From Schizochytrium sp. TIO01 (lineage: Eukaryota; Sar; Bigyra; Thraustochytrida; Thraustochytriidae), in assembly GCA_004764695.1 (NCBI GenBank), contig SMSO01000014.1:3423148-3487147 (forward strand): a stretch of 64,000 bases of DNA, in the 5' to 3' direction. The translations under genes were made by a program, and so were the position numbers. A model generated the notes under the pieces. The model was given only the letters and a program-made list of their open reading frames with translations. It had not been told where the DNA came from and made no database searches. How positions within the stretch are numbered: the first letter of the stretch is position 1; each line of letters opens with the position of its first letter. Positions 32,058 through 60,533 of this stretch are shown here, piece by piece.

Positions 32058-35000
32058 ATGGGCGGGTCCGGGCGAGTGGACTTTAAGAGTAAACTGGGTA
32101 CGTGCAACGGCTATTCATGAATTTAGCAAGATGTGCAGAAGCTTGTAGCTGGCAAGGATTCAGTGATGTCAAGATGGATGAGCCATGGAAATAGCTTGCA
32201 ACGGAGGAAAACGGAGATGTCCATGAACCAAGTGGGGCCAAGACAATGCCGCATCGGTGCAAGGAAACCATGGAGTGCTTGATTAAGCTCTGGAAAGTAT
32301 GAGCTGTAGCAAACCCTAACGAGAATGAACTTGCCATAAAACAGCCGAAATGAATCAAAAAACCAAGAATGGAGAAACTGACAAGACACTTGCTGGTACA
32401 ATGGAAATGTGTATTATAATCGTGTGTGGCTTTGCGGTGGTTCGCGTATTATTATTCGGTCTGGATTCTCTTTTCTATGCATGATACGTACAACCTACAT
32501 GTACTCGTCCTGGCCTGATGTGCAGATATTGAGGAGTACTTAGAAGATGTAGCAAGGGCGAACAATAGCGGCGAGCCAAGCGCGGTAGGGCGCAGAAATG
32601 GCGTCCCACTGAGCTCAGGAGAAATCGAAAGGCTCCGGCGAGATGACTTTGAGAAAAGAAAAGTCCTTAGGCTCATCCAGGTACGGGAGCAGGAAAAAAT
32701 GCTCGCCATTGCGAGGCGGCAAAAGTACGAGGAAGCTCTCGAACGAAAACGTGCAAAAGCACATGAAAAACGACGCCGAGCATGGGAAGCAGACCGCCAA
32801 CAGCAGATTGATGCTCTCACATCTACATATAAGCAATCTTTGGGTCAAATTGGGATCGCCCACCGTCATGCACAATATCAGGCACAGACTCAGGCAGCCG
32901 AAGAAGCTCGAAAACAGGCGCATAGGGCGCACTTAAGACTTCAGGAACAAGCTCGGCATGAGGTAGCCTTGTCCAAAGAGCGCGAGCAACGTGCTGACCA
33001 TCCCTTCTTCGTCGCTAAAGCACAGGGCAAACATCGTTTTACTGTTCGTCAAAACGTGTCGGATTCAGAACGATCTCGCGCGAGACGCAGAGCAGAAACG
33101 CAAGACCACCTTCGACAAGAGGACCTTGCTACTCAACGTGCACTTGAGGCAGCTGCTGAAAAGTCATTACGCAAGCGTGATATTACCATTGACATCACTG
33201 CTCAGGTTCCTCAAAGTGCTCCAAGCATTCAGGACTTTGCATCGACACGTTTTCATGCTTCGCTCACCCAGCATGCATCACGAAGAAACTCGACCGCTTC
33301 TGAGACATCGTCTGTTGATAGTGATGGAACCGAGTCTCGTGGATCTGCTAGTTGTCAACTTGGTTTTAAAAGGGCAGAACGCTTAAATCAAAAGATTGCT
33401 AAACGTCAACAAGCTGAACAAGAAGAAAAGGTCCTTGCCGAGGAGCGTGCTACCGCCCGAGGAGAGTCAGCCATGTACAAATTGCGCATGCTTCGCGATT
33501 ATCAAGAGGTGGAGCAAAACCTTGCCGCGCTGCGTCAAGAAGAGATTAATGCCAACAAGCAAAATACTATGCAAACTTTACGACGCCTTCGCGCTTCTTG
33601 GCAAGCGAGAGACAAACTTGATAAACACAAGGCTATGCTCCAACAACGTGCTTTCGAACAAACCTTTGTGGATGTTCCCAATGAACCGCAGGGTGTTCTT
33701 CGACAACCCCCCGAGGTTTTGCATGTGATTCCAGAATCCGAAGAAGATGTTCAAGAATCGGATTTCACACAAGCTCAGGCTGGCGAAGATATTTTAGTAC
33801 AAGAAGATCCTGGTTGCGATGAGGGAGAACGACTTGTCCATCACGATGTAGGACCAATATCTATAACTGTGACTTCAGCAGAACACACAGGTAAGGAAGA
33901 CAACAGTGGCTCTCGAACGATGCCGGGAAAACCACCTGCATCACCTCAACCACACATTTCAATCCCTACTGCGCAGAGTGATTTTGAAGATCAGAAATAT
34001 CTTTCTCTAAGTGGCGAAGGTGCGGACAATACTGTATCGACACGACATGGAAAATCCGGGGTATCTGTGAAAAAACAGCATCCTTCCAAGCCTCAACAGC
34101 TCCATGCAGATTTCCAGGATAGTATCGACGATCAAAACGGCAGTTCCGAGAAGGAAAAAGAAATTGATTCCGAAACACGTGCTCTGCTAGAGGCTTCCCG
34201 CCGCGCACGTCAAAGGGGCAATCAAAGTGTTCAAGCTATTCTCAAAATGGGGCAGTCCTTTTTGGAAGGCTCGTCTGATTTCGAAAGCGCTGATACAAAA
34301 ACCCATTTAAGCCATCCAAGAAGAGCCAACAGTGACGAGAGTTCGCAAATTGATTCCTCTGCCACAGTTTCTTCGACTGACCTTTCCTTGCATGCTCGAG
34401 CTGCTGCAGCTGCGTCAGCAGCTGCACGCGCCGCAGCTGATGCGGCGAACCACCACGCTCACTCTCAAACCACCTCCTTTCCTTCTCGTGAACAGCTCGA
34501 ACAATCTATCACCCATTATCTTTATGGATCTGATAGTGAAATTGAAGAGTTTGACGGAGACTTCAGTCATACGGAACCCTCAACACAGCAAGTAGGGTTA
34601 AATGCTTCATTTGTATCTACTTCTAGTTCCCGATCTTGGGAACCTCGAAGAACACCAGGTGAGCGTGCTCGAGCACTTAATGACCTCGCCCTTTCAGTGC
34701 TTCGAGACTTGGACCCTACGCACCCACGAACAAACGTTAAATCAAATCTCTCTGTTGCCTCCTCGGATGTGGCATCCTTAGAGCAGCTTCCATTGAGTCC
34801 AAGCTCACGACCTTCAACAGCTTCTGGCGTTAGGCGCCAGGAACGACCTTTCGATTATAATACATACCATGCTCAAGATCATTCATTAGAATCTTCGGAA
34901 ACGGAGACATCTACCTCCACCCCGACTTCTTCGGCTGTTGAACACCTTATTGTGCGCGACGAAAGCTGGAAAGAGTCTGATGCCTTTACACAGTGGCTTA

Positions 35001-39495: not shown

Positions 39496-39517
39496 CTAGA
39501 CTCTCTCGAAAGTCTAG
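39496..39517. promoter_or_regulatory. Perfect 7-bp inverted repeat upstream of transporter
   Basis: CTAGACT and AGTCTAG flank an 8-base spacer, about 325 bases before the transporter start codon. It could be a binding site for a dimeric regulator or a leader hairpin; function is unknown. Confidence 0.3.
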
Positions 39518-39542
39518 CCGGCCCTTAGGCGAGTGATCGATT

Positions 39543-39562
39543 CGAGTGATTCAATTCACTCG
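39543..39562. promoter_or_regulatory. Second perfect 7-bp inverted repeat upstream of transporter
   Basis: CGAGTGA and TCACTCG flank a 6-base spacer, 26 bases downstream of the first inverted repeat. The arm CGAGTGAT also occurs as a direct repeat just before it (from 39530), so this half-site appears three times in 33 bases. Confidence 0.35.
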
Positions 39563-39840: not shown

Positions 39841-39923
39841 ATGTCAATCTATCAAGGTATGAACGCCACTGCTTCGTTCATTTCCGGCATTAGTACGATG
39901 ATTCACCGGGATTCATCTTCACA

Positions 39924-39961
<38 letters not shown>

Positions 39962-41106
39962 TCGTTTCACCAAAGGAAAAATTAATCAAGGTGGATGTGG
40001 AAGACCCGGAGAGCGGGAGTGGGAGCGATGAAAGTGGCTCTTCGCCCACGCACAGGTTTGGTCGAAAAACCAGCAATCTTGATCTCGAGGACGATGTCTC
40101 AAAGTCATTCCTGCAACCAGCAGTGATGTCTAGTTCAGCTGGTAAAAGGTATCCAATCACTTCTTGCCTAATGTACGCAGTGACGTCCATCGCCATGGTG
40201 CTCTTCAACAAGATAATTCTCACCAGTTTCAATTTCAAGTACGAGATGGTCCTTCTCTTTGCTCAAAATCTCATATGCATGGTTCTTCTTCGTATTGCAA
40301 GGACCATGGGCCTCTGCTCGTTCGAGGACTTTGATATGCGCAAGGCAGTTCACTGGCTGCCCCTGAATGTGTTTTTTGTGTTTATGCTTCTCACTGGCTT
40401 TTACAGTCTACAAATGCTCAGTGTGCCGATGGTGACTATTTTTAAGAACAGCGCGAATGTCCTAGTCACTACGGGTGATTACCTCTTTTATGGCCAGACC
40501 GTAACACCCGGTGTTGTTGCTTGTCTTGCGCTCATTGTGGCTGCTGCATCCTTTGCGGCTGCTAACGATATCACTCTCGACACCATGGGCATCTTTTGGG
40601 CCGTCTGCAACTGTGTTGTGTCCGCAGCTTACGTTTTATACATGCCTCAAGCTATGGAGCGCACGGAGCTCAGTAGTTTTGGCAAAGTCTACTACAATAG
40701 CGCACTTTCGCTCCCTTTAGTAATTTTGCTTGATCTCGTGGCCTTTCGCCATTTCAGTGGCTTTTTTTCATCAAGTGATATCTTTGGCCCATACCTCACC
40801 ATGCCCTTTTTGGTCACTTTGGTAGTTAGCGGTATATTGGGCTTTGGAATCAGCTTTGCATCGTTCAACTGTGTTCGCCAGACATCTCCGACCACATATG
40901 CAATGGTTGGCTCCATGAACAAAATTCCCCTCTCCGTCCTTGGCGTAGTCATCTTCAACACACCTATCACCGCAAAATCTGGCATTTTTATCACCATTTC
41001 ACTCTTCGCAGGAATTCTGTATGCTTACACTAAAGCTAAGCAAACCAAACCAAAATCTCCTGCTGCTTCCGGGACGTCGGATTCTTTGTTGGCTCGAAAA
41101 TCATAA
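39841..41106 (+). CDS. GDP-mannose transporter-like nucleotide-sugar carrier
   Basis: A 421-residue, single-exon membrane protein of the drug/metabolite transporter superfamily, closest to the Vrg4/GONST group that exchanges GDP-mannose for GMP across the Golgi membrane. About ten hydrophobic segments run from residue 105 to 396. Family landmarks seen: YPITSCLMYAVTSIAMVLFN opening the first segment, FKNSANVLVTTGDYLFYG (201-218), YYNS (284-287) where Vrg4 has FYNN, and GSMNKIP (357-363) where Vrg4 has GALNK. These last two build the GDP-mannose site. The first 100 residues are a Ser-rich, acidic cytosolic tail containing 13 consecutive Gln (28-40), unusual for the family. The ATG at 39841 fits a normal start. 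The sugar could be another GDP-sugar such as GDP-fucose, given the altered motifs. Confidence 0.85.
39922..39960 (+). repeat. CAG/CAA tract encoding 13 Gln
   Basis: A nearly pure CAG run inside the transporter's N-terminal tail, with CAA codons at the second and last positions. The interrupted ends are typical of tracts that are partly stabilised against slippage. Confidence 0.95.
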
Positions 41107-43908: not shown

Positions 43909-46137
43909 ATGAGCAGTCGCACACATGCTGATGGTGGTGCACAGCGCAGTGGGGCTATCAGGCCATTTCGCTCACCAACGAGAATGGATGAAAACCAAGC
44001 AAATTTAGTGCTGCAAGGTCTCCAATCTGCTATTCAGGAAATCCACAAACAAAATGCAAGCCTGTTGAGCTTTGAAGAGCTTTACCGCAACGCATACAAC
44101 CTGGTACTCCACCGCCATGGAGAAAAGCTTTACAAAGGCATCGAGTCTGAGGTTACTGCTTATCTTCGCACGCTCGGTGAGTCTGTGGCTCGATCGACCG
44201 ACGATTTGCTGCTAGTTGAACTTGTACAGCAATGGAGGACGCACATTACCACAATGACCATGATCCGCGACATTCTTATGTACATGGATCGCACCTTCGT
44301 ACTCCAGGAACGGAAGGAGCCTGTCTATGAGCTTGGTCTCCGTATCTTTAAGGAGGAGGTTGCCTGGCACAAGAATGTCCGTAAGCGGGTGCAGCGTATG
44401 CTCTTGACCAGCATCGAAGCCGAGCGGCGGGGCGAACTCATTGAACGGGATGTGATTCGAAATGTACTTCAAATGCTTGTAGAGCTTGGGATTAACAGTC
44501 TTAAAGTCTACGAGGAGGACTTCGAGCAGGCGTTCTTAGAAGAAACGGAAAAATTCTATCAGAGCGAAGCGAACGAGTTCATCCAGATCAATACCTGCCC
44601 GGACTATGTGGAGAAAGCCAGAAACCGACTGGAAGAAGAGCGCGCTCGTGCAAAGGACTATCTTCAACCAAGCACCGAGGATAAACTCATCAAATTAGTT
44701 GCCGAAGAGATGGTCGCCAAACATGCAAGTAACTTGGTATCTATGCCAAAAAGTGGCTGTCGTGTGATGCTTGAACGCGATAACCTGGAAAACCTGCACA
44801 ACATGTATCGTTTATTCGAATTCAAGGACTGCCGTCAACATATCAGGCGTTGCCTTTTTGATTTTACGAAAGAGTCTGGCGAGCGTCTTGTTGATGACCA
44901 GGACTCGGATATGAAACCAGTAGAATTTGTTCGCGAGCTCCTTGACCTCCAAGGCAAGTATGATCGCATCGTCCGCGACGCTTTTGAGGACGACAAAGAC
45001 TTCCAGAAGGCCATCAAAGAGGCCTTTGAGTTTTTTGTCAATAAAAATCAACGCTGCGCAGAATACCTGTCCATGTATCTGGATGACCTCATGCGCAACA
45101 AGCATACCGTAACCGAAACTGAAATTAGTCAAAAAGTGGATCGTGTAGTAGTTGTCTTTCGTTATCTGCAGGACAAGGATATCTTCGAAAACTTTTACAA
45201 AGATCAGCTGGCCAAGCGTCTACTATCTCACAAATCTGTGTCCGAGGACGCGGAGACCAGCATTATTCGCAAATTCAAAAGTGAGTGTGGTCAGATTTTC
45301 ACATCCAAACTCGAGGGTATGTTCAAGGATATGAAACTTTCAAAGGAAACAATGGAGAAGTACCGTGCAGCCTGTCCCCGGCCTCGCGACTCAACTGACC
45401 CAGAGCTCAATGTCACGGTGCTTACCACTGGCTACTGGCCCTCTGAGCAAATATCGCCGTGTCATTTGCCCCCCGAGTTGGAAGGTGTTTGTAGCCAGTT
45501 TAAGAATTTCTACCTCAATCTCCACAGTGGACGCAAACTTTCGTGGCAAACCAATCAGGGTACGGCAGATCTAAAGGCAAATTTTGGCCCTGGTCGCGCA
45601 ACACACGAATTCAATGTCACCACCTACCAGATGTGTATTCTCATGTTGTTTAACTCTAGAGATACCTTCTCAGTGAATGAAATTGAGCGAGCAACGGGTA
45701 TTCCTATCAATAAGCTCCGCCGTCACCTGCTTTCTCTAGCAACCCCGCGCTTCCGCATTTTGCATAAAGAACCCCAGAAGTCTGGAATCTTTGATGGTGA
45801 CACTACCTTTACGCTCAACACTGACTTCAGCGCTAAGCTGCTTCGTATCAAGGTCCATCTTATTACTGAGCGACGAAATGTTGGTGCTGTGAAGCGTGGT
45901 ATTCCTGAGCAGGTTGATGAGGATCGTAAACACCTCATCGAGGCTGCGATTGTCCGTATCATGAAGTCACGCAAGCGGCTAGAACACAGCGTCCTTGTCA
46001 ATGAAATTGTTCATCAGCTATCGGAGCGCTTTGTTCCAACTTCACAGGATGTCAAGCGCCGCATTGAGTCTCTGCTTGAGCGCGAGTACCTTGATCGTGA
46101 CCCTGACGACCACCGCTGCTACCGCTACCAGGCATAG
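43909..46137 (+). CDS. CUL3: Cullin-3, scaffold of BTB-type ubiquitin ligases
   Basis: CUL3 bridges BTB-domain substrate adaptors at its N-terminus to the RBX1 RING protein at its C-terminus, forming an E3 ubiquitin ligase. From ATG 43909 the protein has 742 residues (human CUL3 is 768). The N-terminal extension IRPF...RMDENQ (about 17-30) resembles the CUL3-specific tail that contacts BTB proteins, and LSFEELYRNAYNLVLHRHGE (53-72) is the first cullin repeat. The cullin-homology region includes GRKLSWQTNQGTADLKANFG. The C-terminal winged helix holds the neddylation motif IVRIMKSRK with the acceptor Lys at about 686, and the protein ends in YRYQA, the usual cullin terminus. The frame is open a further 43 codons upstream but has no ATG there. 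No introns. It is convergent with the next gene, 499 bp away. Confidence 0.96.
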   Translation: MSSRTHADGGAQRSGAIRPFRSPTRMDENQANLVLQGLQSAIQEIHKQNASLLSFEELYRNAYNLVLHRHGEKLYKGIESEVTAYLRTLGESVARSTDDLLLVELVQQWRTHITTMTMIRDILMYMDRTFVLQERKEPVYELGLRIFKEEVAWHKNVRKRVQRMLLTSIEAERRGELIERDVIRNVLQMLVELGINSLKVYEEDFEQAFLEETEKFYQSEANEFIQINTCPDYVEKARNRLEEERARAKDYLQPSTEDKLIKLVAEEMVAKHASNLVSMPKSGCRVMLERDNLENLHNMYRLFEFKDCRQHIRRCLFDFTKESGERLVDDQDSDMKPVEFVRELLDLQGKYDRIVRDAFEDDKDFQKAIKEAFEFFVNKNQRCAEYLSMYLDDLMRNKHTVTETEISQKVDRVVVVFRYLQDKDIFENFYKDQLAKRLLSHKSVSEDAETSIIRKFKSECGQIFTSKLEGMFKDMKLSKETMEKYRAACPRPRDSTDPELNVTVLTTGYWPSEQISPCHLPPELEGVCSQFKNFYLNLHSGRKLSWQTNQGTADLKANFGPGRATHEFNVTTYQMCILMLFNSRDTFSVNEIERATGIPINKLRRHLLSLATPRFRILHKEPQKSGIFDGDTTFTLNTDFSAKLLRIKVHLITERRNVGAVKRGIPEQVDEDRKHLIEAAIVRIMKSRKRLEHSVLVNEIVHQLSERFVPTSQDVKRRIESLLEREYLDRDPDDHRCYRYQA

Positions 46138-46636: not shown

Positions 46637-47950
46637 TTAAAGCTCTTTGTTGTCTGATTCAAGAGCACCCTCTGGAGAAGTCGAAGTTGGATTCTCACCT
46701 TCAGCTTCAGGTACAGTATTACTAGAGTCGACGTTACCAAAGAGCATGTTTGACATCTTCTCGTAAAGAGCAATAATACCTCCGCTGGTATCATTTGCGT
46801 CCGCGCTATCTTCGCCAGAATCAAGTTTAGCCAGAGCCTCTTCAAGGGTTTTTTCTATTTGAGCAAGACGCTCCATTTTTGTTTTTTGAATGTCATCCTT
46901 TTCCTTCTTTGCACTGTTCTCAGCACTCTTGCGATCTTTTGTGTGCTGATCGTCAAGCTCCTTGAGGCGAGCTTTCAATTGGGTATCGACAGCTTTGGTC
47001 GCCTTTTTCGCTTCTTTAGACACACGTTTATTGTCTTTTTTGGCGCGTTTCTGAAGCTCTGCTCTCTTCCCTTCCCGCGCGGACTCAATTGGGTCAATCT
47101 CTACCCCTGCTGACGCACCCGGAGCCTCGCCAAGTGCTACATCGTCTGATGTTACATCAGCCTCTGGGCTTGTCTTTGTCTTTGCCTTTTCGATTTCCTC
47201 AAGTTCCTTAGCATATTTTTCAGTCAGCTGCCACCAAGTATGCATATTCCGAGGTTTGTCGGTTGCGCTCGCAAGCAGGCGATGCCACCGGACATCGGTT
47301 TCAGCCTTGAAAAGAGTAAAAGTGCCCCTGCCAACGGAAGCCATGGACCAAGAGCTCTTCTCCGGATCAATTTCATCAAGCAGGTCAAGATTGAGTTCAA
47401 AAGTCTTGTGTTTGCCTTTACAAGTCGCATGCAAGGATATCCTTTGTTTCTCAATAGTGATTTTCTCATCAGCAAGATCAATACAGGCCGGGGCGTCGAG
47501 CTTGTGTGCGAATTTGACACCGAGAAAGACTTGATCGCGACTTTGGGCCCATTCAAACGCTGGTGCGACAATCGTTGATGAGGCACTTTGGAGCTTTGCC
47601 TGCTGAAGGATACTTGTGACCTCTGTCAACTTGCGGCGGATAGAATTTACTGCAGTATGGACTTCATAGTCAACTTTAACGCCGTTCTCAACGCAAGCCT
47701 GAGACAGATCGATTGCTGTTTTGAAATATCCTTGTTCGAGAATTTTGCCGAGAATACTACCATCAACGACGCCTTCTTGACATGCATTTTCCTGGCCTTG
47801 TAATAGACCACGTTCGCGAAGGTTATTCATGAACACCTCCTCCGATGGGCTCGAGGACAGAGCTTGGGAGAGATCATCCGATGCTGCACCACTCGCAACT
47901 GTAAAAAGTGCCAGGAAAAACAGCCACTGCATATACCCAGGCCTCGGCAT
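46637..47950 (-). CDS. ER-targeted protein with a p23/CS-like domain
   Basis: A 437-residue protein. Residues 7-23 form a hydrophobic signal peptide ending in SGAAS. Residues 30-125 are helical with Cys57 and Cys86. Residues about 130-240 look like a CS/p23 (Hsp20-like) domain: it opens with PAFEWAQSRDQVFLGVKF, has the middle FELNLDLLDEIDPE, and closes with a strand and Trp-rich end (VRWHRLL, HTWW). This resembles the domain in HACD3 and p23 proteins, which help Hsp90. A Lys/Glu-rich coiled coil (about 285-375) follows. The last residues are DNKEL, similar to but not a strict match for the KDEL-type retention signal. An ER-lumen cochaperone role is inferred. It starts back to back with the coiled-coil gene at 48837, 886 bp away. 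Confidence 0.7.
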   Translation of the reverse strand: MPRPGYMQWLFFLALFTVASGAASDDLSQALSSSPSEEVFMNNLRERGLLQGQENACQEGVVDGSILGKILEQGYFKTAIDLSQACVENGVKVDYEVHTAVNSIRRKLTEVTSILQQAKLQSASSTIVAPAFEWAQSRDQVFLGVKFAHKLDAPACIDLADEKITIEKQRISLHATCKGKHKTFELNLDLLDEIDPEKSSWSMASVGRGTFTLFKAETDVRWHRLLASATDKPRNMHTWWQLTEKYAKELEEIEKAKTKTSPEADVTSDDVALGEAPGASAGVEIDPIESAREGKRAELQKRAKKDNKRVSKEAKKATKAVDTQLKARLKELDDQHTKDRKSAENSAKKEKDDIQKTKMERLAQIEKTLEEALAKLDSGEDSADANDTSGGIIALYEKMSNMLFGNVDSSNTVPEAEGENPTSTSPEGALESDNKEL

Positions 47951-48836: not shown

Positions 48837-51800
48837 ATGCACGCATTCAGTTCACACCAACAAAACCAAGCTCAAACCAACGGAGGGCACTCGTCCTTTG
48901 GCTCAGAAGGTCAAAATGTTGTGTCAAGTATGCAGTACCCGATTCATTCATTCAGTTATCAACAGCAACAATCTCAGCAACCCCAGTCAGTGCAGCAATC
49001 ACTTGGCGGAGGCGAGCAACGTCTGCCTCGCATATTTGGAGAAGAACCAAGTCGATCTCCGACACATATGTTCAAGCGCTCTACGCAGGACAATATCCCC
49101 TCGAATGGACATGGGGTTCCCTCCACGGAGACAATGGCTATGCAAATTCAAAAATTATCCTCGGATGTTCAGCATCTGCATTCCGCAATGCGTGAACGAG
49201 AGGAAGACGAATCTTACTACTCTAAGCAAGCCTATGAAAAGCTCTCTCGAATGCACCAGCTAATCACAAACAAAGAGAGGCAGCTTATGGATAGAATTGC
49301 TGCTGTTCAGGACCAACTAGGAAATGTAGATTGTAATGGCCGCGAGAATGGAGAGCGAAGGATTCGTTTGGCAGAGGAAAAAACAGAAATGGTTAAGCAA
49401 GCTTTTGAGAAACGTGCAGGAATGGCGGATATGAATGTCGCTAGGGAAAGACGAGAGCGGGTCGAAGGTGAAGATCGGCTTCGAGCAGAAGTACGCGCTA
49501 GGTTTGAGCAATTTACGGCAGCACTGAGGGATCATGAGGCCTTTGTGAAATCATACCAAGGAAGAGCCACTCAGGATGTTCAAGAGCTTCAAGAAGAGCA
49601 GCGAAAAAACTTGCAGTCAATACGAGACCACTTTCAGGATGCATTAGTGAACGTTGCTAACCGAATTAAGAGCGTCCACGGTACAATTAAGCAATCAGAA
49701 TCCAAGGTCGACACAAAGATTGATCAAGCAACAAAGCAGCTCTCGGACATGCTTAAGGCTGAAATCAAGGTTCGGAAATCTGCGCTTGGGAAGGTGGTAG
49801 AGAGTTTAGCACAGCAGGAAAAAATTATTCAACAGGAGATGACACAACTTACAGCCAGTGTGCATGCAAAACAAGACCTGCACTCTTGCCGTCTTGAAGA
49901 GGTTGACAACACAACTCGTGAGAGACACGAAAGCTTTGCGCGAGAAACTCTCGCATCTGTGGTAGAACTTCGGAAGGACAATCGCCAACTTGAGCAAGAT
50001 TTGCAAGCGCATGTCGCAGATTTTGGCACAAGAATTGAAACTGTACAATCTTCATTAGCTAGTGCACAGAAGTCAATCACAGATGATATTGAGGCGCTTT
50101 CCTCGCAGACTGCAGCTGGCGTGCAGGAACTCAGGTCTGATGTATTCGAAAAACTAGGCACACTCGAAGACCGAATGCTTCGGACAATGGAGGAGCGTAT
50201 TTCTAAGCTTGAGCGGCTTCTCACTAATGAGCAAATCGATCGTCACCAACATTGCCAAAATGTCAAGAATGAACTTACAGATCAGATATCTCAATTACGA
50301 GCTTACCAGGCCGAGCAAGACCACGCCCTTCGAGCCGAACTGGCATGTACTAAAGAGAATTTTGACACGTTAGTGCAAGAAAAGCACACATTATTGCAAA
50401 ATACTCTACAAAGTACTTCAACAACACTTCAAGGTCATATTGATCATTTGAGTGCGAGCCTAGACGCAACGATCCAGGAAGTAGACCGCACAGCTCGCGA
50501 GGGTTTAAGTTCGCAAGCAGCAGCACATTCAGCGTTGCAAGAACGAGTAGAGCACCTATCGAACGAGTCTTCAGCCTCCACCGAAGCCACGAGGCAAGAG
50601 ATTCGACAACTTGGAAAGTCGCTAGAACAGAAAATTACTCATGCAAACTCACGAGTTGATGGTGTTTATGGTGATGTACAGCGAGAGATTGACCGGGCAA
50701 CAAATAAAGAACTAGAACTAGCCGGCGCAATAGCATCTGCACGAGCCATTTTGCAGAAGACTATCACAGATGCTACGGAAAGTCTTAGTTCTGTCCTCGA
50801 CGCAAAGCTTGAACAAGAACGAACCCACTCGGCTTCATACACAGACAGCAAGGTCTCAGCGGCACGAGCACTTTTAATGACGAGTATCGAAACAGAATCT
50901 TCTACACGATGCAATGAAAATACAGAACTGCAAGAGAGCTTGCGATCCGAAATCAAATTATCATGTGACAAGATTGTTCAAGAAGCAAAGGCAAATCTGG
51001 ATTCTACAGCCAAGTCTCTGCGAGCTGAAGTAGAAGGTACAGAGCGAGCCCGAACGCAGTCAATTCTGCATTTGACTACACTGGTAGAAGCAACAGCGCA
51101 TAGTCTACGTGTTGACTTTGGAAACGCACAAGATGAGATGAATGTTCGTTCTGCTATGGACATGCTTTGTGCCAAAGTAGAGCGCGAATCAGCCGTAGCG
51201 CGGCTTGATGAGCAGCAACAAGATCAAGAAATTCTGCAGGATGCGCTTCGAGCTGAAATTTCTGCTCGAGAGCGTGACATGGCGAAGTTAAGAAGCGAAA
51301 CGCAAGGTTCTGTAGATGCTCTTACTGCATCTCAAGGAGAGGAGATTGCCAAGCTACAAGCCGCTCAGGCCGCAGCTCGTTCTCAGGCCGCACAAGAAAA
51401 GACAGATCTGCAGTCTCACATTAAGGGCCAGAATGAAGAGTTGCTGAGAAAGATCACTGAGCAAAGTGAGGCTACAGGTAAACTAACCATGACATTTGAG
51501 ACCAAGATTGAAGAAGTTATGAGCCAATTGCAAGACTGCACTGCATACGATCAACGGTTGCAATCTCAAATTGATCAGAATTACAATGAACTCACCGCAG
51601 CAGATCAATCAACCGCGCAGGCATCCCAATTAGAAGTTGACCAGAAACTCCAGGATATTTGGGCCTATTCCCAAGAGTCTGATTCTCGACGAGAAGAGCT
51701 TCGAACTTATGTTGAACAGCTCTACACGAAAATGCAGTCTCAAGAAGAAGACGGGCAAGTCCTTCAAAGCAATATGACACAGAAAATGGAGGAGTTAGAG

Positions 51801-52394
51801 ACGAAAATCCGCGAGAGTAGTGGCGAGTCCTTGCAGCTGGTTGATCAAAGTATTGGGGAATTGCGTGATGAGCTGCTAGCAGCACAAGGCTTGCTTGGTT
51901 CGATTCAAGAAAATGTAAGTGCTTTAGGCATTCAGGTTGATAACCTTGAAGCAGCAATTCCAGATAGCAAAGCGCTTGCTGAGAAGAGTAGTGCAAAGCA
52001 AGAAGAACTAGCAAATAAAATTTCAGAAATACAGACAAAAGTACAGGAGCAGCAGCCAAAACTAGAATCTATTCAGGGGGAAATTGCGAAAATGAGGCTT
52101 TCTTCTAATGACGGGAGCTCGGACACTATAGAGCCTGACAATCAGGATTTCAAAATGGAAGTAAGCAAAAGGCTTGACAATCTTGAAGAGGCCCTCTTAC
52201 TTGTTGGAAATGAGGGTCTGAAAACCAAAAATGAGATTCATAAACTAGAGGCAAATGCGAAAGATATGGAAAACAACGTAGAGAATCTGGAGGAAGCTGT
52301 CTTACTTGTTGGCGAGGAAGGACTCAAAGCCCACAGTGACATTAAACACCTTGAGGAAGATAACAAAGAAGATCCGAATGAAGCCAAAAAATAA
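48837..52394 (+). CDS. Large coiled-coil protein, family unknown
   Basis: 1,185 residues in one exon. The first about 110 residues are disordered and Gln/Ser-rich, with the motif LPRIFGEEPSRSPTHMFKRS near 62-81. Nearly everything after that is long coiled coil, rich in Gln, Glu, Ala and Ser, with few prolines, so an elongated fibre or scaffold is likely. The repeated alternation of IEKRR-type and QLE-type stretches faintly recalls striated-fibre assemblins, but I cannot confirm this. Near the C-terminus two copies of NLEEA(L/V)LLVG(N/E)EGLK (about 1115-1129 and 1150-1164) are 35 residues apart, exactly five heptads. It sits between two centriole-protein genes, which makes a basal-body or flagellar-root role attractive but unproven. 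ATG 48837 is the only candidate start. It is convergent with the RGS gene, 356 bp away. Confidence 0.75.
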   Translation: MHAFSSHQQNQAQTNGGHSSFGSEGQNVVSSMQYPIHSFSYQQQQSQQPQSVQQSLGGGEQRLPRIFGEEPSRSPTHMFKRSTQDNIPSNGHGVPSTETMAMQIQKLSSDVQHLHSAMREREEDESYYSKQAYEKLSRMHQLITNKERQLMDRIAAVQDQLGNVDCNGRENGERRIRLAEEKTEMVKQAFEKRAGMADMNVARERRERVEGEDRLRAEVRARFEQFTAALRDHEAFVKSYQGRATQDVQELQEEQRKNLQSIRDHFQDALVNVANRIKSVHGTIKQSESKVDTKIDQATKQLSDMLKAEIKVRKSALGKVVESLAQQEKIIQQEMTQLTASVHAKQDLHSCRLEEVDNTTRERHESFARETLASVVELRKDNRQLEQDLQAHVADFGTRIETVQSSLASAQKSITDDIEALSSQTAAGVQELRSDVFEKLGTLEDRMLRTMEERISKLERLLTNEQIDRHQHCQNVKNELTDQISQLRAYQAEQDHALRAELACTKENFDTLVQEKHTLLQNTLQSTSTTLQGHIDHLSASLDATIQEVDRTAREGLSSQAAAHSALQERVEHLSNESSASTEATRQEIRQLGKSLEQKITHANSRVDGVYGDVQREIDRATNKELELAGAIASARAILQKTITDATESLSSVLDAKLEQERTHSASYTDSKVSAARALLMTSIETESSTRCNENTELQESLRSEIKLSCDKIVQEAKANLDSTAKSLRAEVEGTERARTQSILHLTTLVEATAHSLRVDFGNAQDEMNVRSAMDMLCAKVERESAVARLDEQQQDQEILQDALRAEISARERDMAKLRSETQGSVDALTASQGEEIAKLQAAQAAARSQAAQEKTDLQSHIKGQNEELLRKITEQSEATGKLTMTFETKIEEVMSQLQDCTAYDQRLQSQIDQNYNELTAADQSTAQASQLEVDQKLQDIWAYSQESDSRREELRTYVEQLYTKMQSQEEDGQVLQSNMTQKMEELETKIRESSGESLQLVDQSIGELRDELLAAQGLLGSIQENVSALGIQVDNLEAAIPDSKALAEKSSAKQEELANKISEIQTKVQEQQPKLESIQGEIAKMRLSSNDGSSDTIEPDNQDFKMEVSKRLDNLEEALLLVGNEGLKTKNEIHKLEANAKDMENNVENLEEAVLLVGEEGLKAHSDIKHLEEDNKEDPNEAKK

Positions 52395-52750: not shown

Positions 52751-54376
52751 TTAACCGTCCCGCAATCTTGAAGGAATTGTGGCAATGACACTCTCGTATT
52801 CAGGGCTACTGATGAAGTCTTGATAAAGGTTCGCACGGAGATCAGTAAGAACGACTTTTCGAGCACCCTCAATCATCAAAATGCAGACATCACGTGGGAA
52901 ATTCGTGGCTGATTCATCTGCTAAAATCCTGCGCAGTTCATCTGCTTGCATCCATACACTTGTCAGTTCTTTTTCATTTACAGGATCCCTTTCAAACAAG
53001 GTGACGAAACGAGTACAGATCTGCAGCATCCACTCTTTACGTGAAAGAGCAGCGACAGAGCCACGGAGACCCCCTGTTGAGGAGCCAGAGGAGCTAGCTA
53101 CAGATGCACCAGAAAATAAGCCACGGCTCGTAGACCGATTACTAATGCGAGGCATTGGTGGAGCAGTTCCTAAAGCTTGGGATGGCGAGACCATACCTGC
53201 ATGGTCCAATTGGTCCACAGGAATAGCCGAAAAAGCAGCATGGGCACGATCAAGGTCAACAGAATAAGTCACAAGCTCAGCATTGCGAAGCCCTCGAGTG
53301 CCAAGTGCTGACCGTTTTGCAAAGCGGAAAAGTCGATCTGCACCAGCATATGTTGATAACAACCCCTCTAAGGAGCTCATGGCGCGCTCTAAGACAGCTT
53401 CATCCCGCATACTCTGAGCTCGTTGCCCATCTTCTATCATACGCTCAGCCAGATGAAACTTTTCATTCTCCGCAGCGAGAGTAATGTTGTGTTCAATGGC
53501 TTTAATCCAAGTCTGGGACTCCTCTTGCGTCTTGGCTCTAAATTGTATTACATCTTTGGGTGTATCGATTTCAAAGCAGTGTCTGAGCCCTCCCAGGTTT
53601 CTTGGTTCGATTGCCTTGACCCGCGTCTGCATGAGCTTTATCACATGCGCATCTCCATGATCTAAATTTGAAAGACAGTGCACAAGGTCATCTTTCCTTA
53701 AAACACACCATCTTCGCTGCCACTCCCTTGGATTTGCCGCACTTCGTTGAAACAGAAACCCATGTTTATCACCTCTCCCAATAGAGTTTATCGGCAAAAA
53801 TTCTGTTCTGTTTGCACTTCCGTTCCCATTCGCAGATTGCTGCTCAGAAACCCCCCTCCTTGATCCCCTTGAAGAGCTTTTCTGCATTGCCTCGAAAATT
53901 ACATTTGGACCATCGTCGCGAAATCTTTCAACATCTTTCTCGTTTAAAAACGCAAATCCATTCACGAGTCGCACTTCATGTCCCGGCACGCTCTCAGATT
54001 TCACGCTATCTATAATCTCATCTTCACGGGACTGTAGAGCTGCGCGTGCACGCAGGAGCCTGTCTTCGTGTCCAAGGGGATCAAGGGTCACGATATATGC
54101 ATGCTCTGTGGACGTGGAAGGGTCGCGTACGACGGCGAGAGTCCAGGTGAAGATGGCGTAGTGAGAAGCTTCAGAAGCCTCAATCTTGTTCCGGCGAGCG
54201 ATGGCCTCGAGCACCTCAACGGTGCGGACTTGGGCGTGGAGAGAAACACTCTGTAAGGTTCCGTCAATGTTTACAACCTCGATGATCAACGCCATCTTGA
54301 TGGGTAAAGGCCGCGCCGAGCGACTCAAGCAAATTTGAGATCTTCGATCTTCTAAAGGTTTGGGTTTTGGATTCAT
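52751..54376 (-). CDS. PH and RGS domain protein with RA/ubiquitin-like N-terminus
   Basis: 541 residues from the first ATG (an alternative ATG at 54295 begins the conserved part, MALIIEVVN). Residues 28 to about 145 look like a Ras-association or other ubiquitin-fold domain. Residues 203-301 are a pleckstrin-homology domain: KHGFLFQRS, EWQRRWCVLRKDDLVHC, CFEID and the hallmark Trp290. An RGS domain, which speeds GTP hydrolysis on G-protein alpha subunits, appears in two pieces: SLEGLLSTYAGADRLFRFAK (335-354) with its following helix, then after a roughly 65-residue Ser/Gly-rich insert FVTLFERDPVNEKEL to LYQDFISSPEYESVI (457-531). The piece ending is typical of RGS domains. Likely a membrane-recruited regulator linking small GTPase or lipid signals to a G-alpha protein. 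The PH call is firm, RGS probable, RA tentative. Confidence 0.78.
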   Translation of the reverse strand: MNPKPKPLEDRRSQICLSRSARPLPIKMALIIEVVNIDGTLQSVSLHAQVRTVEVLEAIARRNKIEASEASHYAIFTWTLAVVRDPSTSTEHAYIVTLDPLGHEDRLLRARAALQSREDEIIDSVKSESVPGHEVRLVNGFAFLNEKDVERFRDDGPNVIFEAMQKSSSRGSRRGVSEQQSANGNGSANRTEFLPINSIGRGDKHGFLFQRSAANPREWQRRWCVLRKDDLVHCLSNLDHGDAHVIKLMQTRVKAIEPRNLGGLRHCFEIDTPKDVIQFRAKTQEESQTWIKAIEHNITLAAENEKFHLAERMIEDGQRAQSMRDEAVLERAMSSLEGLLSTYAGADRLFRFAKRSALGTRGLRNAELVTYSVDLDRAHAAFSAIPVDQLDHAGMVSPSQALGTAPPMPRISNRSTSRGLFSGASVASSSGSSTGGLRGSVAALSRKEWMLQICTRFVTLFERDPVNEKELTSVWMQADELRRILADESATNFPRDVCILMIEGARKVVLTDLRANLYQDFISSPEYESVIATIPSRLRDG

Positions 54377-55817
54377 TAGAAATAATATGTAGGTTGGTAT
54401 CTACCTACTGTGGTAATAGTAGCCTAAGATTGATTTTTCTTCTTTCCATGTCACAGTTTGCTCGCTTTGTGAGAGCAAAGCGAGGAATAGATACGCCAAA
54501 ACAGGAGATCTATCGAGGTACGATCTCGTGTCTGTCTAGAATCTCAAAATTGGAAAACAGTGAAGGTCAGCAACAGCATAAGCAAGTCTGTTGTCTGCTT
54601 AATCAATAGAATTGTTTTCTAGAGATCTCTGTACTGCTATCTATGACTGAACTCTTGCTCAAACCTCTACACTGCACATAAAATTGCGTCTTGCATGAGC
54701 TAGATTATCAGTCTAGACATTGCTGACTTAGAGGGCAGTTTTTCATCCTGAAAAAGGCCGTGTAGGTCATGTTCTGCACCCCAAAGAGCTGAATGCACTA
54801 GTTCTTTCAATGTATATTTAAAAAAAGAAAGAAAAAGGAAGAGAAGTCAGGACATTTGAGACGATAAGTGATTGGCATTTAATAAAAATCCCCTGAAGTT
54901 CGTAATGCTGTATATGTAAGGGGGACATCCTCTTCCATGTTAATAAATGTTGGTAGAAGATTTTATCATCAGTGCTGATGTTCTTTCTTACGCGAATTTT
55001 TATCAACAGACACATTCAAGGTACAACAACTACATGAGCTATCCTTCCCAGCATTGGATGTCCTGTCTAAGTTTAGAAAACAATTTGCTGACTTCATGTA
55101 TGCCTACAGGATTATTGCTTTTCTAATCTTCATATACATGCCAAAAAAGAGTGTATATATATATCCTTTAAACTGAGAACTAGTATTTCAAAGAAATCAA
55201 AACCTTTCTCGTCTAACACCTCCCTCACAACCGAGATTTGCATTCATGACCTCCTTGCATTTCTTTTAATGGATTGTTAAGACAGAATCCCAAATAACTT
55301 TCGGTACCATTTCGTTGATCTCGTAGGTACCTAGCTTCTGCGATATTTTTTTCCCATCGTATCTCTATTAGTCTCCTTATCAGGCGTCGTGCACTACTAA
55401 ACCTGTATTATTTCTTCTATCGCACACCTCTGGTAGTTAGCTAGCTAGCCCTTCACCAGAGTAAAATTATAATAGGCAGCTTATAGGAAAAGGGAACTAT
55501 ACTTAATTGTAAATATTCTTATAACCCATTTGTAGGGGATAAATCACTGTTTTCTATGGCTTTATTTCATTGTAGAGATCGCCGTTTACTTTACTTTGGC
55601 TTGGCTTCTGGTGTCGCGGTCGTTGTCGTTGTTGCCAAGGCGAAGACAATGCTTGATCACTCTTCGCCGCAAGCTCTCAAAGCTCTCAAAGCTCGCAAGC
55701 GGTAGCCCTTTGGGGGGGGGTGGAGAAAACGCTCACCCTCGCTCCTGGAGCGAGCTTGCGGAGTGTTCTGGAATTCAGTGGCAGGGACTGGAGCTCCGGC
55801 CTCTGTGGGTGTTGAAG
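54377..55817. other. Divergent promoter region, RGS gene and CEP135-like gene
   Basis: No gene. AT-rich, with T-rich and TATATA stretches, becoming GC-richer from about 55,580. It contains a short upstream open reading frame (55649-55705), a 9-base tandem repeat at 55672-55699 and a G9 run (55712-55720). Confidence 0.5.
55649..55705 (+). promoter_or_regulatory. Upstream open reading frame before CEP135-like gene
   Basis: An 18-codon ATG frame, MLDHSSPQALKALKARKR, ends 112 bases before the CEP135 start at 55818 and lies in a different frame. If this region is transcribed, it could lower translation of the main gene. A period-9 repeat (AGCTCTCAA) builds the ALKALKA part. Confidence 0.35.
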
Positions 55818-58800
55818 ATGATGGCCTCAATGACTGCCACTAAGACCCCCGTGGTCCAGCTTTACGAAGAGACAAAAGCAGAGCTCAAAGCAATGGAGTA
55901 CTATGAATTTCTGGGCATGGAGTCGCTTGATTTGGTGCGAATCTTGCTCTCAGATCTTGTCATGACCACAGAGAGCCATGAAAAACAGCAGAAGAAAATT
56001 GAGATCTTGGAGCGAGATTTAGGCACAGCACAAGAGTCTGGATTCACGCTGCGAAGGGAAAATGCGCGGTTGGTGCGCGAGAATAACCAACTTCACATTG
56101 ACATGATTCGTAGAGCTGAAGAGCTCGATGAACGTGAGAGAGAATTGCAAGGTAAACTCCAGGATGCAAACGACCGAATTGCAGAAGCCAATTACAAATC
56201 GTCGCAATTTGAAAGCAAATTACACCAGTCCGAAAGAGCTCTGGCAATTGCAAGGGGAAACTCAGGCGAGCCTGGAACGCCTCGTGGAGATCTGACCGTG
56301 TCTAATTTTGATGGAGGTGTGGCCAACAACACTGTATTAAACGTAAAATCCACATCCGCATTCCAGCACGATAAGGAAAACAACGCGAATAATGGCAACA
56401 ATGTTTCTGTTTTGGAAAAACGACTTCAAGGGGTCTCAGAAGAAGCGAAGGAACTTCGTGAAAAATTAGCTCACGTCTCCAAGCAAGTAGAGCTTCGTGA
56501 TGCTGAGGTGATCCGTCTTGGCAAGGAGCTCGAACGCCGCGACTATGCTCCTGGCAGTGCGACACACGCAGAAAACCCTGCGTCGGAGCGCCCAGAGCCT
56601 GAACGCCAACTCCAGCAGTCTCGTCATGCAGACGAAAAGGTTATCGCTCAGCTATATGATCAGATTGACTTCCTTAACGCACAACTTCAAGACAAGGAAT
56701 CAAAAATGCAAAAAGCAAACATGGATAGCAAACTTCTTGAACAAGCTCGCATTGAGCTGCAGCGCAAGGATGCCGAACTGAAGAAAACCATGGAGAGGCT
56801 TGGTGACGCCGTCTCAGCTCAGGCAAAATCACAAGAAGAAAAAGATGTGGCTATCAAAGCAAGCCAAGAGGCGGCTCAAAATGCGGAGGCTTTCTTAATG
56901 AGCCCAGAGCGACTTGAAAATGCACTTTCGAATGCCAAGTCTAATGAGCTCGCAACACTTTTGGAGGCATACCGCGAGGATAAGTCACGTTTTGCTGCAA
57001 CTGTGCAACGTCTTGAGCAGCTCGCAACAGACCACAGGATGCGTGCCGAACAGCTCGAGCAAGAACTTCATGACCGAGTGTCACAACAGGTTAAGGCAGA
57101 GGAAAGCAGCAAAAAGGCTGAAGCCGAGCGTCAAAGACTCGAAGGGGAACTTGGAGACGCCCAGCGAGCTCTAGCAAAGCTTCATGATGCTCGTTTGTCT
57201 GCAGAGGAAACCTCGGCTGCAATGACTGGTGAAGTAGGCAGTCTTGAGTCACTTGTTGAAGACCAACGGGCTGATTTAGGAGCTCTTCGCGGTGAACTCG
57301 AGCGCATCCGAACAGCAGAACAAGAAACTATCTCGCAGCTTGAGCAGGCTCGTGCAGATCTGGCTCGCGTTGAGCGCGAGCGAGACTCTCTGCAAGATCG
57401 TCTACGACACTCGATCCTAAATACGGAGAGCTTGCACGATGAGCGCGATGCTTTGCAACGCTATGTGGACTCTGTTCTTAACGACTTGAAGAAAGAAAAA
57501 GTACTTGCTCAGGACATGAAGGCTGAGATTGATGGTGTGAAGTCTGATGCAGAACACTACCAAGGACGATGCCGCGTGCTCGAGGATGAAGTTCGATCGC
57601 TGACACAGAAACTCGTTTCTAAGTCAAAGGAACACTTGGAGGAAGCCGGATTTCGAGCCGAACTGGAGCAACTTTCTGATCTTCCAGGCATTGTCAAAGA
57701 ACTGGAAGAGCAGGTTGCACGCTGGAGATCAAGATCTGCCGATCTCGATGCAGAATCTAAACGTGTTGCACGGGCGCTGGATGCAGCCAATGCTGAAATC
57801 CGGGAAACCAATGAAGATCGCGAACAGCTTGAACGCACTATTTCAGATTTAAGGGCTGCTCGGGCGCAAGTGGACAGACAATTGCGGGATACACGTAATC
57901 AAGTGGAAGAACTTACTGTAAAGCTCGAATCAGTGACGGCAGATCGTGACAGCCTCGTCGCCTTGTCTAAGGCCTCTTCTGAGCAGCTGTCCCAGCGTTC
58001 TGCAGCCTCTGCAGCTGCGGACGTGGAACTTGATCGCTGTAAAATTGAATCCCAACGTGCCATTGCCAATGCTGAAGCTGCAGGTCGTCGCGAGGCAGTA
58101 TTGCGGGAGCAATTACAAAGTGCACGTGAAGGCCTCTCTCGTACAGAGACACAGATGATGACAGTGAAAGACTCGCTACAAGCAACTAAGGTGGAGCGCG
58201 ATAAACTTAAGGAAACCATGGCTTCTCTAGAGCGAGAGGTCGCAACGCTGCGTTCTGAAGAATGCAAATTAAATGAGGCGTTGCAAGCCTCAGAGCAGAA
58301 TGCTCGGGACCTAGCGGCTCAACTTGATACGGAGAGAGGGGAACGATCGAAACTGACTGCTCATCTTGAACAGTTCAAATCTGTATTCTCTAAACTAGAT
58401 GAGACAAGAGCAAATCTGCAGGATCGTGTAAGAGAGCTTCATACAGCGTTGCAGAAAGAAAAAGCAAATTATGCGGAGCTAGACAAGAAACAGAAGTCTA
58501 TTGAAGAAATTGCACGTGCAGCTACGGAAAAACGCGGGCACCTTGAACGAGCCCTCAAGGACGCCAACGAAGCTAACGAGCGACTTTTGGCACAACTGGA
58601 CTCCAAGGGAAAGGCAAATTTCGAGCTTGAGAGCGCAGTTAACAAACAAGAATTAACATATCGTGAGCTTGAACAACGCCTTGGAGCTGCAAAACGTCAA
58701 CTTTATGTTCAGTCACAGGCTCTGGAGAGCCGTGACAATGATTTGCAAGAAACGCTCGACGAGGTTGCAGCTGCTAAACGCACGATTGCTCATCTAGAGC

Positions 58801-60533
58801 AGATGTGCAAAGCTCGCAGCAGCGAACTGAAAGCTGCTGCTCAAGATCTTGCGAACATGACTCGTGAGAACCAAGCTGTTAATTCTTCTTGCCAGACGCT
58901 TCGAGTCGAGCGTGACCAGCTTCGCGTTCAACTCAGCGAAGCCCTTGCACGCGCTTCTCGTATGGATGGCCTTTTGGAGAGTGGGAAGCTTGAAAAGGCA
59001 GACCTACTCAATGTATACAGACGTTCTTGCGATGAGAACGCTCGACTCAAACGTCTTGTGCAAGAGCTCAGCACATCCCGCGCCAAAGTGGTTGGTGAAA
59101 ATCAAGCCCAGCAAGCCGATACCTCTAGACTAAGGCAGCGTCTTGCAGAGTCTGAGGAAGCCGTTCGTAAGCAACAGGTTGATCTCCAAGCTTATGAGCG
59201 CCAAGTAGCGGACATCTCACGCCAGATGCATGCAATTAAGTCCCGTCTGGATCTCACTGAGGAAGAGAAATCTTTCGCAGAACGAACCGCAACCTCAGCT
59301 CGAGAAAGTACGGCAAGTATGGCACACCGAGAACAGACACTCAAATGGCAACTTGCTCAACAACAAGCTGAAATTGATAAGCTCACGTTGCGGATTTCGA
59401 AACTTGCTGCTGACAACGAAGCTTTACACACACAACTTTTACAGGAGCGTCGGCGTTATCAAGATCTTGAGCTGGTGGTAACAAAGGCGAGGGCAGCTCA
59501 AGCTCAGGCATCCTTAGCTGAGAAAGCTCGAGCTGAAGAGCTTCACAGCTTGCGTAATACCTTACTCGACCGTGAAGTTGAAGCAGAACGTTCATTTGCG
59601 TCTACTGGAGGCGAAAGCCACCAATCTGCTACCTCACAGTCCACACGCCCACTACATTTGGGACACACTAGCCAGCAAGGTAAACCTAGAAAAGGTAGCC
59701 ATAATGTAATTTTCGAAGACAATGAGGACATGATTGAAGAGAATAGTCAAGTCCTTTCGCCTACTGATAGAAAAACCAGCTGGGCTGTGCAAGGGAAGCA
59801 AGGGATAGACAAAGGTACAATAGCGCCTCCAAGTACACCAACTAAGAGTGTGGACCATCAGTCTGAACTGCCAACGCAGACCCGTTCTCCTCCTGTATCT
59901 TCAATTACGGCACCTACAAATATGTCGTCTACTTCAGGACCTCGTTCAGAGAAAGATTCTTCCGATCCTGCGAATACAAGTCCTCAAAAGCCTCATACAA
60001 ATCCTACGAGCCAGTCACGACTTCGTCAAGAGACACCAAAGACGCCACCTCCGATAAATAGGTCTCACGGTGCTACACAGTCTGAAAGGACCAACCCACA
60101 TACGGTGGGCACACCTCCGTCGTCAGCTGGCTCAAGGCAATCTAAAAATGAAGCACGCGCTCGTCCTAGCAGAACATCTTTTGAACTGGAGTCTTCAGCA
60201 GATGCACATCTAGGGTATCATTCGGCCTCACACAATGACGCAGCTGTGCCTTCCTCGCCATACAGTCATGCCAGCTCTAGTGAACTGGACCATATGACCA
60301 GCGAGCTGGAGGCTCTCATTTCTGACCAATCTGACATTATTCGACGAATTCAACAAGATCGTCGTGCATTTGGACAAGTAACAGCAGAAGTCCGCCAAGA
60401 CCTGGAGACCTCGCGGTCAAGGGCTTCTATATTGGCTTCTCAAACCCGCCACGATATGATGCTTGACGAGGCCCCAAGCCTTGAAGATATTGGAGCTGCT
60501 AAGCCAGGCACACCAGATTCACCCTTTGCATAA
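55818..60533 (+). CDS. CEP135/Bld10-type centriole cartwheel-to-wall protein
   Basis: CEP135/Bld10 links the SAS-6 cartwheel to triplet microtubules and is needed for centriole and basal-body assembly. From ATG 55818 the product has 1,571 residues, similar to Chlamydomonas Bld10 and longer than human CEP135. The conserved N-terminal block is clear: LDLVRILLSDLVMTTES (37-53), then LRRENARLVRENNQLHIDM (78-96), the pattern seen in CEP135 and TSGA10. QLYDQIDFLNAQLQDKES follows around residue 280. Almost uninterrupted coiled coil runs to about 1265, then a Ser/Thr/Pro-rich disordered tail, then a short terminal helix pair (about 1485-1535). The frame is open upstream of 55818 but contains no ATG. 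No introns seen. An upstream reading frame precedes it. The family call rests mainly on the N-terminal block, because long coiled coils attract false matches. Confidence 0.88.
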   Translation: MMASMTATKTPVVQLYEETKAELKAMEYYEFLGMESLDLVRILLSDLVMTTESHEKQQKKIEILERDLGTAQESGFTLRRENARLVRENNQLHIDMIRRAEELDERERELQGKLQDANDRIAEANYKSSQFESKLHQSERALAIARGNSGEPGTPRGDLTVSNFDGGVANNTVLNVKSTSAFQHDKENNANNGNNVSVLEKRLQGVSEEAKELREKLAHVSKQVELRDAEVIRLGKELERRDYAPGSATHAENPASERPEPERQLQQSRHADEKVIAQLYDQIDFLNAQLQDKESKMQKANMDSKLLEQARIELQRKDAELKKTMERLGDAVSAQAKSQEEKDVAIKASQEAAQNAEAFLMSPERLENALSNAKSNELATLLEAYREDKSRFAATVQRLEQLATDHRMRAEQLEQELHDRVSQQVKAEESSKKAEAERQRLEGELGDAQRALAKLHDARLSAEETSAAMTGEVGSLESLVEDQRADLGALRGELERIRTAEQETISQLEQARADLARVERERDSLQDRLRHSILNTESLHDERDALQRYVDSVLNDLKKEKVLAQDMKAEIDGVKSDAEHYQGRCRVLEDEVRSLTQKLVSKSKEHLEEAGFRAELEQLSDLPGIVKELEEQVARWRSRSADLDAESKRVARALDAANAEIRETNEDREQLERTISDLRAARAQVDRQLRDTRNQVEELTVKLESVTADRDSLVALSKASSEQLSQRSAASAAADVELDRCKIESQRAIANAEAAGRREAVLREQLQSAREGLSRTETQMMTVKDSLQATKVERDKLKETMASLEREVATLRSEECKLNEALQASEQNARDLAAQLDTERGERSKLTAHLEQFKSVFSKLDETRANLQDRVRELHTALQKEKANYAELDKKQKSIEEIARAATEKRGHLERALKDANEANERLLAQLDSKGKANFELESAVNKQELTYRELEQRLGAAKRQLYVQSQALESRDNDLQETLDEVAAAKRTIAHLEQMCKARSSELKAAAQDLANMTRENQAVNSSCQTLRVERDQLRVQLSEALARASRMDGLLESGKLEKADLLNVYRRSCDENARLKRLVQELSTSRAKVVGENQAQQADTSRLRQRLAESEEAVRKQQVDLQAYERQVADISRQMHAIKSRLDLTEEEKSFAERTATSARESTASMAHREQTLKWQLAQQQAEIDKLTLRISKLAADNEALHTQLLQERRRYQDLELVVTKARAAQAQASLAEKARAEELHSLRNTLLDREVEAERSFASTGGESHQSATSQSTRPLHLGHTSQQGKPRKGSHNVIFEDNEDMIEENSQVLSPTDRKTSWAVQGKQGIDKGTIAPPSTPTKSVDHQSELPTQTRSPPVSSITAPTNMSSTSGPRSEKDSSDPANTSPQKPHTNPTSQSRLRQETPKTPPPINRSHGATQSERTNPHTVGTPPSSAGSRQSKNEARARPSRTSFELESSADAHLGYHSASHNDAAVPSSPYSHASSSELDHMTSELEALISDQSDIIRRIQQDRRAFGQVTAEVRQDLETSRSRASILASQTRHDMMLDEAPSLEDIGAAKPGTPDSPFA

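Follow-up and report, generated by a model that had tools for sequence, protein, structure and literature searches.

A Long SF-Assemblin-like Rod Protein Encoded between CEP295-like and CEP135-like Genes in Schizochytrium sp. TIO01

Gene Content of the Locus

The window, that is, the whole stretch of 64,000 nucleotides analysed here (C13:3423148-3487147), belongs to a genome of 64.06 Mb in 37 contigs. From 32 kb onward, it contains eight long genes. Three of these, all on the + strand and together spanning 28.5 kb, had been singled out in the original prediction and are present where it placed them: a CEP295/Ana1-like gene (32058-37588), a gene for a rod protein of 1185 residues (48837-52394), and a CEP135/Bld10-like gene (55818-60533). 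From the end of the CEP295-like frame to the ATG of the CEP135-like frame, the distance is 18.2 kb, in agreement with the ~18 kb predicted.

The gene in the middle had been described as an unknown coiled-coil gene between the other two. A coiled coil is indeed encoded there, but this description omits four further genes: according to a Pfam scan, five genes separate the CEP295-like and CEP135-like genes, and two of the five are on the - strand. The first is a TPT-family (triose-phosphate/nucleotide-sugar-type) transporter (39841-41106, +; PF03151, E 3e-15), followed by a cullin (43909-46137, +; PF00888, E 5.4e-202; PF10557, E 2.7e-27) and a CS-domain protein with an N-terminus that is hydrophobic as judged by eye (46637-47950, -; PF04969, E 1.9e-7). 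A PH-domain protein (52751-54376, -; PF00169, E 1.8e-13) lies between the rod protein and the CEP135-like gene. The transporter carries an N-terminal polyglutamine run, encoded by a CAG repeat at 39922-39959. Just past the centriole region, a protein of 343 residues, with C-terminal hydrophobic segments visible by eye, is encoded at 62286-63317 (+); Pfam gave no match to it up to E 0.001 and a chance-level match alone up to E 10, and PHROGs gave none. Neither Rfam families nor tRNA were found in the window, and the telomere word TTAGGG occurs 10 times, fewer than the 21 expected.

Directly upstream of the CEP295-like gene, a stretch of about 53 kb (window positions 1-32500 together with L022-L024, about -20825 to 32519) contains no frame of at least 200 residues counted from its first methionine. 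The GC content of this gene-poor stretch is 0.407, compared with ~0.45 around it. It possibly corresponds to intron-rich genes, repeats, or a centromere-like region. In the wider neighbourhood, a long frame on the - strand (L030:3194-6475) has a NEL domain (PF14496, E 1.1e-24), here on a eukaryotic contig. NEL domains belong to a class of ubiquitin ligase known mainly from bacteria.

The CEP135-like Protein

The CEP135/Bld10-like protein, 1571 residues long, carries the conserved N-terminal coiled-coil block of this family and is a conventional heptad coiled coil, with a hydrophobic period of 3.50. The N-terminal block (RENARLVRENNQLH / RENARLVRENNQLHIDM) was compared with 177,635 PDB sequences, which yielded eight matches up to E 1. 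The best one is human CEP135 (7bji, E 1.3e-4, residues 79-140), and the second is a "Centrosomal protein, putative" (9qzc, E 5e-4). With human CEP135 at the top of the whole PDB set, the earlier assignment to CEP135/Bld10 holds up. No second copy was found among the 30 genome candidates scored out of 61.

The CEP295-like Protein

The main exon of the CEP295/Ana1-like gene (32526-37588, +) was delimited from its open reading frame, from alignment with pieces of human CEP295 and from Pfam, and shows a DDC8-like/CR1 N-terminal block and an ALMS-like C-terminus. The first in-frame ATG (32699) comes after the LRLIQVREQE block; hence, an upstream exon is needed. A predicted first coding exon (32058-32097, +), starting with the ATG at 32058 and encoding MGGSGRVDFKSKL plus the first base of D, ends before a GT donor at 32098. 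Together with a predicted GT-AG intron (32098-32525, +), whose AG acceptor ends at 32525, it would join the main exon in frame and restore the start of the protein. At ~1700 residues, the product is shorter than human CEP295. All four candidates for a second copy in the genome were scored, and none was found.

The family marks of CEP295 given in passages of PMC5007451 are a DDC8-like N-terminal domain, a PICA motif, and an ALMS motif; the alignment described there covers, according to its legend, animals only. The pieces of human CEP295 used here for comparison are not database sequences. Against these pieces, the N-terminus of the protein scores 161, far above 1000 shuffles (mean 51, maximum 85) and above the next-best frame in the 184-kb region, which scores 68. 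The stretch following the N-terminal block reaches 82 (shuffle maximum 74), and the C-terminus reaches 66 (shuffle maximum 55), again with the non-database pieces. Both terminal matches fall at the correct ends of the protein.

These scores argue against the idea that the gene encodes some other basic, Arg/Glu-rich protein that merely resembles CEP295, an idea for which several other results can be cited. The whole protein matches no Pfam family, an unrelated cytokinesis protein comes out best in the PDB (E 2.2e-4), and the comparison sequence was not from a database. Moreover, the tests for the two remaining family marks are weak. The ALMS family (PF15309) matches the protein at 14.2 bits (E 0.059), under its cut-off of 27, and gave no match in the six-frame search of the genome. 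The PICA motif, likewise not a database sequence, has no significant match in the protein: its score of 41 is reached by 30 of 1000 shuffles, and the rod protein scores 51. Set against the N-terminal score, a mere resemblance nevertheless appears very improbable, and the product of 32058-37588 is likely a CEP295 homologue. As the comparison sequence did not come from a database, the identity is best taken as a strong lead and not as settled membership. Of the two marks named in the original prediction, the N-terminal block has the better match (161 vs. 85, with non-database sequence), and the ALMS motif stays weak (14.2 bits vs. 27).

A limited search of the literature on CEP295 outside animals, including parts of PMC6678760 and PMC13406575, brought up no report of CEP295 in stramenopiles. 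The eukaryote BLAST survey, as presented in passages of PMC5007451, lists no potential CEP295 homologue in Chlamydomonas.

Layout and Periodicity of the Rod Protein

The protein encoded between the two centriole-type genes begins with a head (residues 1-95) that contains seven prolines, at positions 35, 49, 64, 71, 75, 88, and 95. The following 946 residues (96-1041) are free of proline, and the next proline is found at 1042. This distribution fits a head-then-rod layout, as read from the proline positions only. No second copy of the protein was found in the genome, where all 39 candidates were scored.

In residues 91-700, the hydrophobic residues L, I, V, M, and F recur with a period of 3.626 (power 55.3), close to 29/8, while the power is only 0.2 at 7/2 and 0.6 at 11/3. 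When all unit lengths from 5 to 74 were scanned over the same residues, 29 came first (F 4.82) and 58 second (2.95). None of 5000 permutations reached an F of 4.82 (maximum 2.2), and none of 1000 gap-order shuffles reached the power of the protein (maximum 27.4). The local phase at 29/8 remains constant within ~0.2 cycle for windows starting at residues 59-610, thus over ~580 residues, and then shifts.

The repeat is less regular in other respects. In residues 331-710, a period of 40/11 (40.1) beats 29/8 (34.6). In the autocorrelation over residues 101-1040, the lags 11, 47, 25, 18, 40, and 7 outrank 29, a ranking that can go with any period near 3.63. In the last third of the protein, the periods are 3.57-3.59, and the 29-residue repeat is not found.

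The periodicity was compared with that of other frames of at least 200 residues, on both strands. Among these 86 frames, a non-random sample that includes some pieces of one gene, a power above 20 together with a period near 29/8 occurs only in the rod protein (55.6) and in the SF-assemblin encoded by the same genome on C24 (21.5). The latter has its period peak at 3.613, and in its unit scan 18 (3.01) is ahead of 29 (2.58). Heptad types among the 86 frames include the CEP135-like protein (3.500), a coiled-coil frame of 2499 residues on C33 (3.52), and a kinesin (3.518). In its period, the rod protein is close to the SF-assemblin of this genome and differs from the remaining long coiled coils of the comparison. 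A search for myosin tails as coiled-coil controls gave a single weak match.

Another long coiled-coil frame, L010 (C33:4105072-4105473), has a weak SF-assemblin match of 22.5 bits. The period of the longest frame in this locus is weak as well, at 3.594, or 3.696 in a 600-residue window.

Relation of the Rod Protein to SF-Assemblin

SF-assemblin assembles into filaments of 2 nm within the striated root fibres. In passages of PMC8435291, the protein is characterized by a rod of consecutive 29-residue motifs, each of four heptads and a skip, and by a non-helical head; the known SF-assemblins are given as ~30-36 kDa in passages of PMC6819543 and PMC3243723. The 29-residue motif is found in residues 91-700 of the rod protein, whereas the size, 1185 residues vs. 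30-36 kDa, is out of this range.

The SF-assemblin family (PF06705) is the first Pfam family for the whole rod protein (17.7 bits, E 0.0024, match at 444-618; 19.2 bits in the genome search). It also comes first for three of five pieces (91-350, 331-590, and 331-711) and is not listed for the other two (571-830 and 811-1185). The best piece, 331-711, scores 30.1 bits with an E-value of 4.1e-7, which is flattered, the piece having been picked after the whole-protein match at 444-618. Neither the whole protein nor this piece reaches the curated cut-off of 30.6. For comparison, the normal-size SF-assemblin on C24 scores 116 bits.

The match was lost in all three shuffles that kept the 29-residue columns and in the one free shuffle. 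Because the column-preserving shuffles lose it, the PF06705 score does not come from periodicity alone. Furthermore, the family was not listed for the controls, namely two CEP135 pieces, the tails of the kinesin and of a CH_2 protein, and a CEP295 piece. A third CEP135 piece matched 44 families, and PF06705 was absent from the best 25 of these. This third piece, however, matches the unrelated family APG6_N at E 7.6e-10, which shows that coiled coils inflate such E-values and counts against the support from PF06705. In BLASTP from the SF-assemblin of this genome, with composition correction off, the CEP135-like protein (53.1 bits) scored above the rod protein (47.8). PDB sequences gave no match to the whole rod protein up to E 1; residues 331-711 matched apolipoprotein A-IV at E 0.23, and the SF-assemblin of this genome gave one chance-level match (E 0.78). 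In the literature on SF-assemblin, no title of a paper on a giant form was found among the matches listed, which were compared by title only.

The rod protein could also be a coiled coil of near-29/8 period that evolved independently and serves elsewhere, at the cortex, the nuclear envelope, or the spindle. Straight coiled coils can arise repeatedly, and the unit of this one is not a clean 29 throughout. Its PF06705 score is below the cut-off, and apolipoprotein-type helices match it weakly too (Apolipoprotein family, 24.4 bits, cut-off 90). Against this reading stand the preference, in residues 91-700, for 29 among all lengths of 5-74 and the loss of the family match when the columns are preserved, and the layout of head plus rod fits that of SF-assemblin. 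An independent origin is considered fairly unlikely. In its build the protein resembles SF-assemblin, and it probably functions in a similar way, its membership in the family being unproven. The earlier suggestion of a basal-body role for the middle gene receives independent support from the SF-assemblin-type periodicity of 29 residues and from the first rank of PF06705, albeit with a score below threshold.

Linkage of the Three Genes

Two explanations had been offered for the linkage, chance and an inherited cluster. In the second case, the genes of CEP295, the rod protein, and CEP135 would form a functional unit whose linkage was kept through co-regulation in zoospore formation. In favour of this, the three genes share the + strand, span 28.5 kb, and each show features of basal-body type. 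The earlier cluster idea fares badly with the gene content: five genes, including the cullin and the transporter, lie inside the centriole pair, and two of them are reversed. Moreover, the genome search located SAS-6 and a second SAS-6-type gene on C30, CPAP on C31, and SF-assemblin on C24, all on other contigs. Searches for RTTN_N and PPP1R35_C gave no genome match, but the controls matched nothing either, so absence is not shown.

The two genes with a SAS-6_N domain are situated on one contig, at C30:4381847-4382248 (L013) and C30:7587601-7588026 (L014). One of them may be SAS-6 itself and the other a second protein of SAS-6 type.

The flanks, taken as the 50 kb before the window and the 70 kb after it, were represented by frames of 240 or more residues counted from the first methionine; all were scanned, three of them partly or in pieces. 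Of these 25 frames, only two have a ciliary appearance: one encodes a kinesin with DUF4472 and the other a CH_2 protein, and both are located past the long gap. The kinesin gene (L020:3241-6270, +) adjoins the gene of the CH_2 "sperm protein" (L020:6477-9935, -); two axoneme-type families are thus neighbours, at a distance of ~72-79 kb from the CEP295 start on its upstream side. Kinesins with DUF4472 have a ciliary link. The presence of this pair would suit a cluster, whereas a count of two in 25 does not. In the promoters, with start codons set as first-methionine guesses, no word of 6-9 nucleotides is enriched in the seven genes compared with 22 control promoters, and between 72% and 100% of random sets perform equally well.

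Chance was modelled with 12,000 genes in random orders and with assumed sizes of the gene sets. The gene number scaled from the 33 frames of at least 240 residues in 184 kb is ~11,500. For the named pair, the probability of lying this close is near 0.001 if it had been chosen in advance, and with only 100 basal-body-type genes a triple within seven genes arises in 9% of random orders; both figures speak for a cluster. However, the pair was picked after being seen, and the right figure is therefore the chance of any pair this close, which is 0.17, 0.37, and 0.55 for 20, 30, and 40 centriole genes. With 200 basal-body-type genes, the figure for the triple rises to 53%.

The gene inventory, the positions of the other centriole genes, the flanks, the promoter words, and the chance model rule out a cluster as the leading reading, and its probability is judged to be very low. 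The linkage of CEP295 and CEP135 is probably due to chance. The original prediction had allowed for this, and some such pair is not unlikely to occur by chance (37-55% for 30-40 genes).

Proposed Role and Significance

The explanation favoured here, with some confidence, is that three basal-body-type genes lie by chance within 28.5 kb, among four ordinary genes, and that the middle one encodes a giant SF-assemblin-like rod of the root fibres. By homology, the CEP135 and CEP295 proteins most likely belong to the wall of the centriole or basal body, as in animals; CEP135 would be placed at the cartwheel, and CEP295 would bind CEP135 and microtubules. The CEP135/Bld10 family is marked by this cartwheel location and by binding to SAS-6 and CEP295. 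In the fly, according to passages of PMC13422256, Ana1 binds Cep135 as well as microtubules, and the contact with Cep135 joins N-terminal parts of Ana1 to the N-terminal half of its partner.

Behind a non-helical head, the rod protein would continue as a very long and almost straight coiled coil, built largely of 29-residue units of four heptads and one skip residue. Packing would most likely be lateral and head-to-tail, with the protein entering the striated, microtubule-associated fibres in the flagellar root or running along them. There, it may stiffen or space the ordinary SF-assemblin, which is encoded elsewhere in the genome. The formation of helices and filaments, the location at the basal body, and the function are inferred.

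At 0.1485 nm per residue, a straight rod of 946 residues would by arithmetic measure ~140 nm, a predicted length five times the 28-nm striation published for SF-assemblin fibres. If this is true, the 140-nm rod could be a ruler or staple that sets the length of the fibre or registers several striations beside the basal body. That a giant protein of the SF-assemblin type, ~4 times the usual length, adds a novel structural component to the flagellar root is a doubtful, rather speculative proposal. If it is a component of the root fibre, the rod protein would be a concrete, apparently single-copy, and taggable candidate for part of the flagellar apparatus. It would also represent a size variant of the SF-assemblin design, one that could account for the measuring or cross-linking of root fibres. 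Whether the CEP135-CEP295 link is older than centrosomes is a question on which a CEP295 homologue from beyond the animals would bear. The physical linkage of the genes should not be taken as function.

Comparison with Known Systems

The CEP135-like protein shares with CEP135/Bld10 the N-terminal block RENARLVRENNQLH and a long heptad coiled coil. No defining difference was seen between them; the last ~350 residues of the protein look disordered by eye. With CEP295/Ana1, the product of the first gene shares, as judged with the non-database pieces, the DDC8-like N-terminal block and the ALMS-like C-terminus, whereas PICA is not demonstrable in it.

The rod protein has a very long rod and a possible rootlet role in common with the rootletin-type rootlet. 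It differs in having no rootletin family among its Pfam matches and in its period of ~29/8, not 7/2. From SF-assemblin/beta-giardin (PF06705), it is set apart by its 1185 residues vs. ~250-300, by a score under the PF06705 cut-off, by a C-terminal third that drifts in period, and by the presence of a separate normal-size SF-assemblin in the same genome. The likeness to this system, on the other hand, covers the repeat of ~29/8, the proline-containing head, and the long proline-free rod, and PF06705 is the top Pfam match of the protein.
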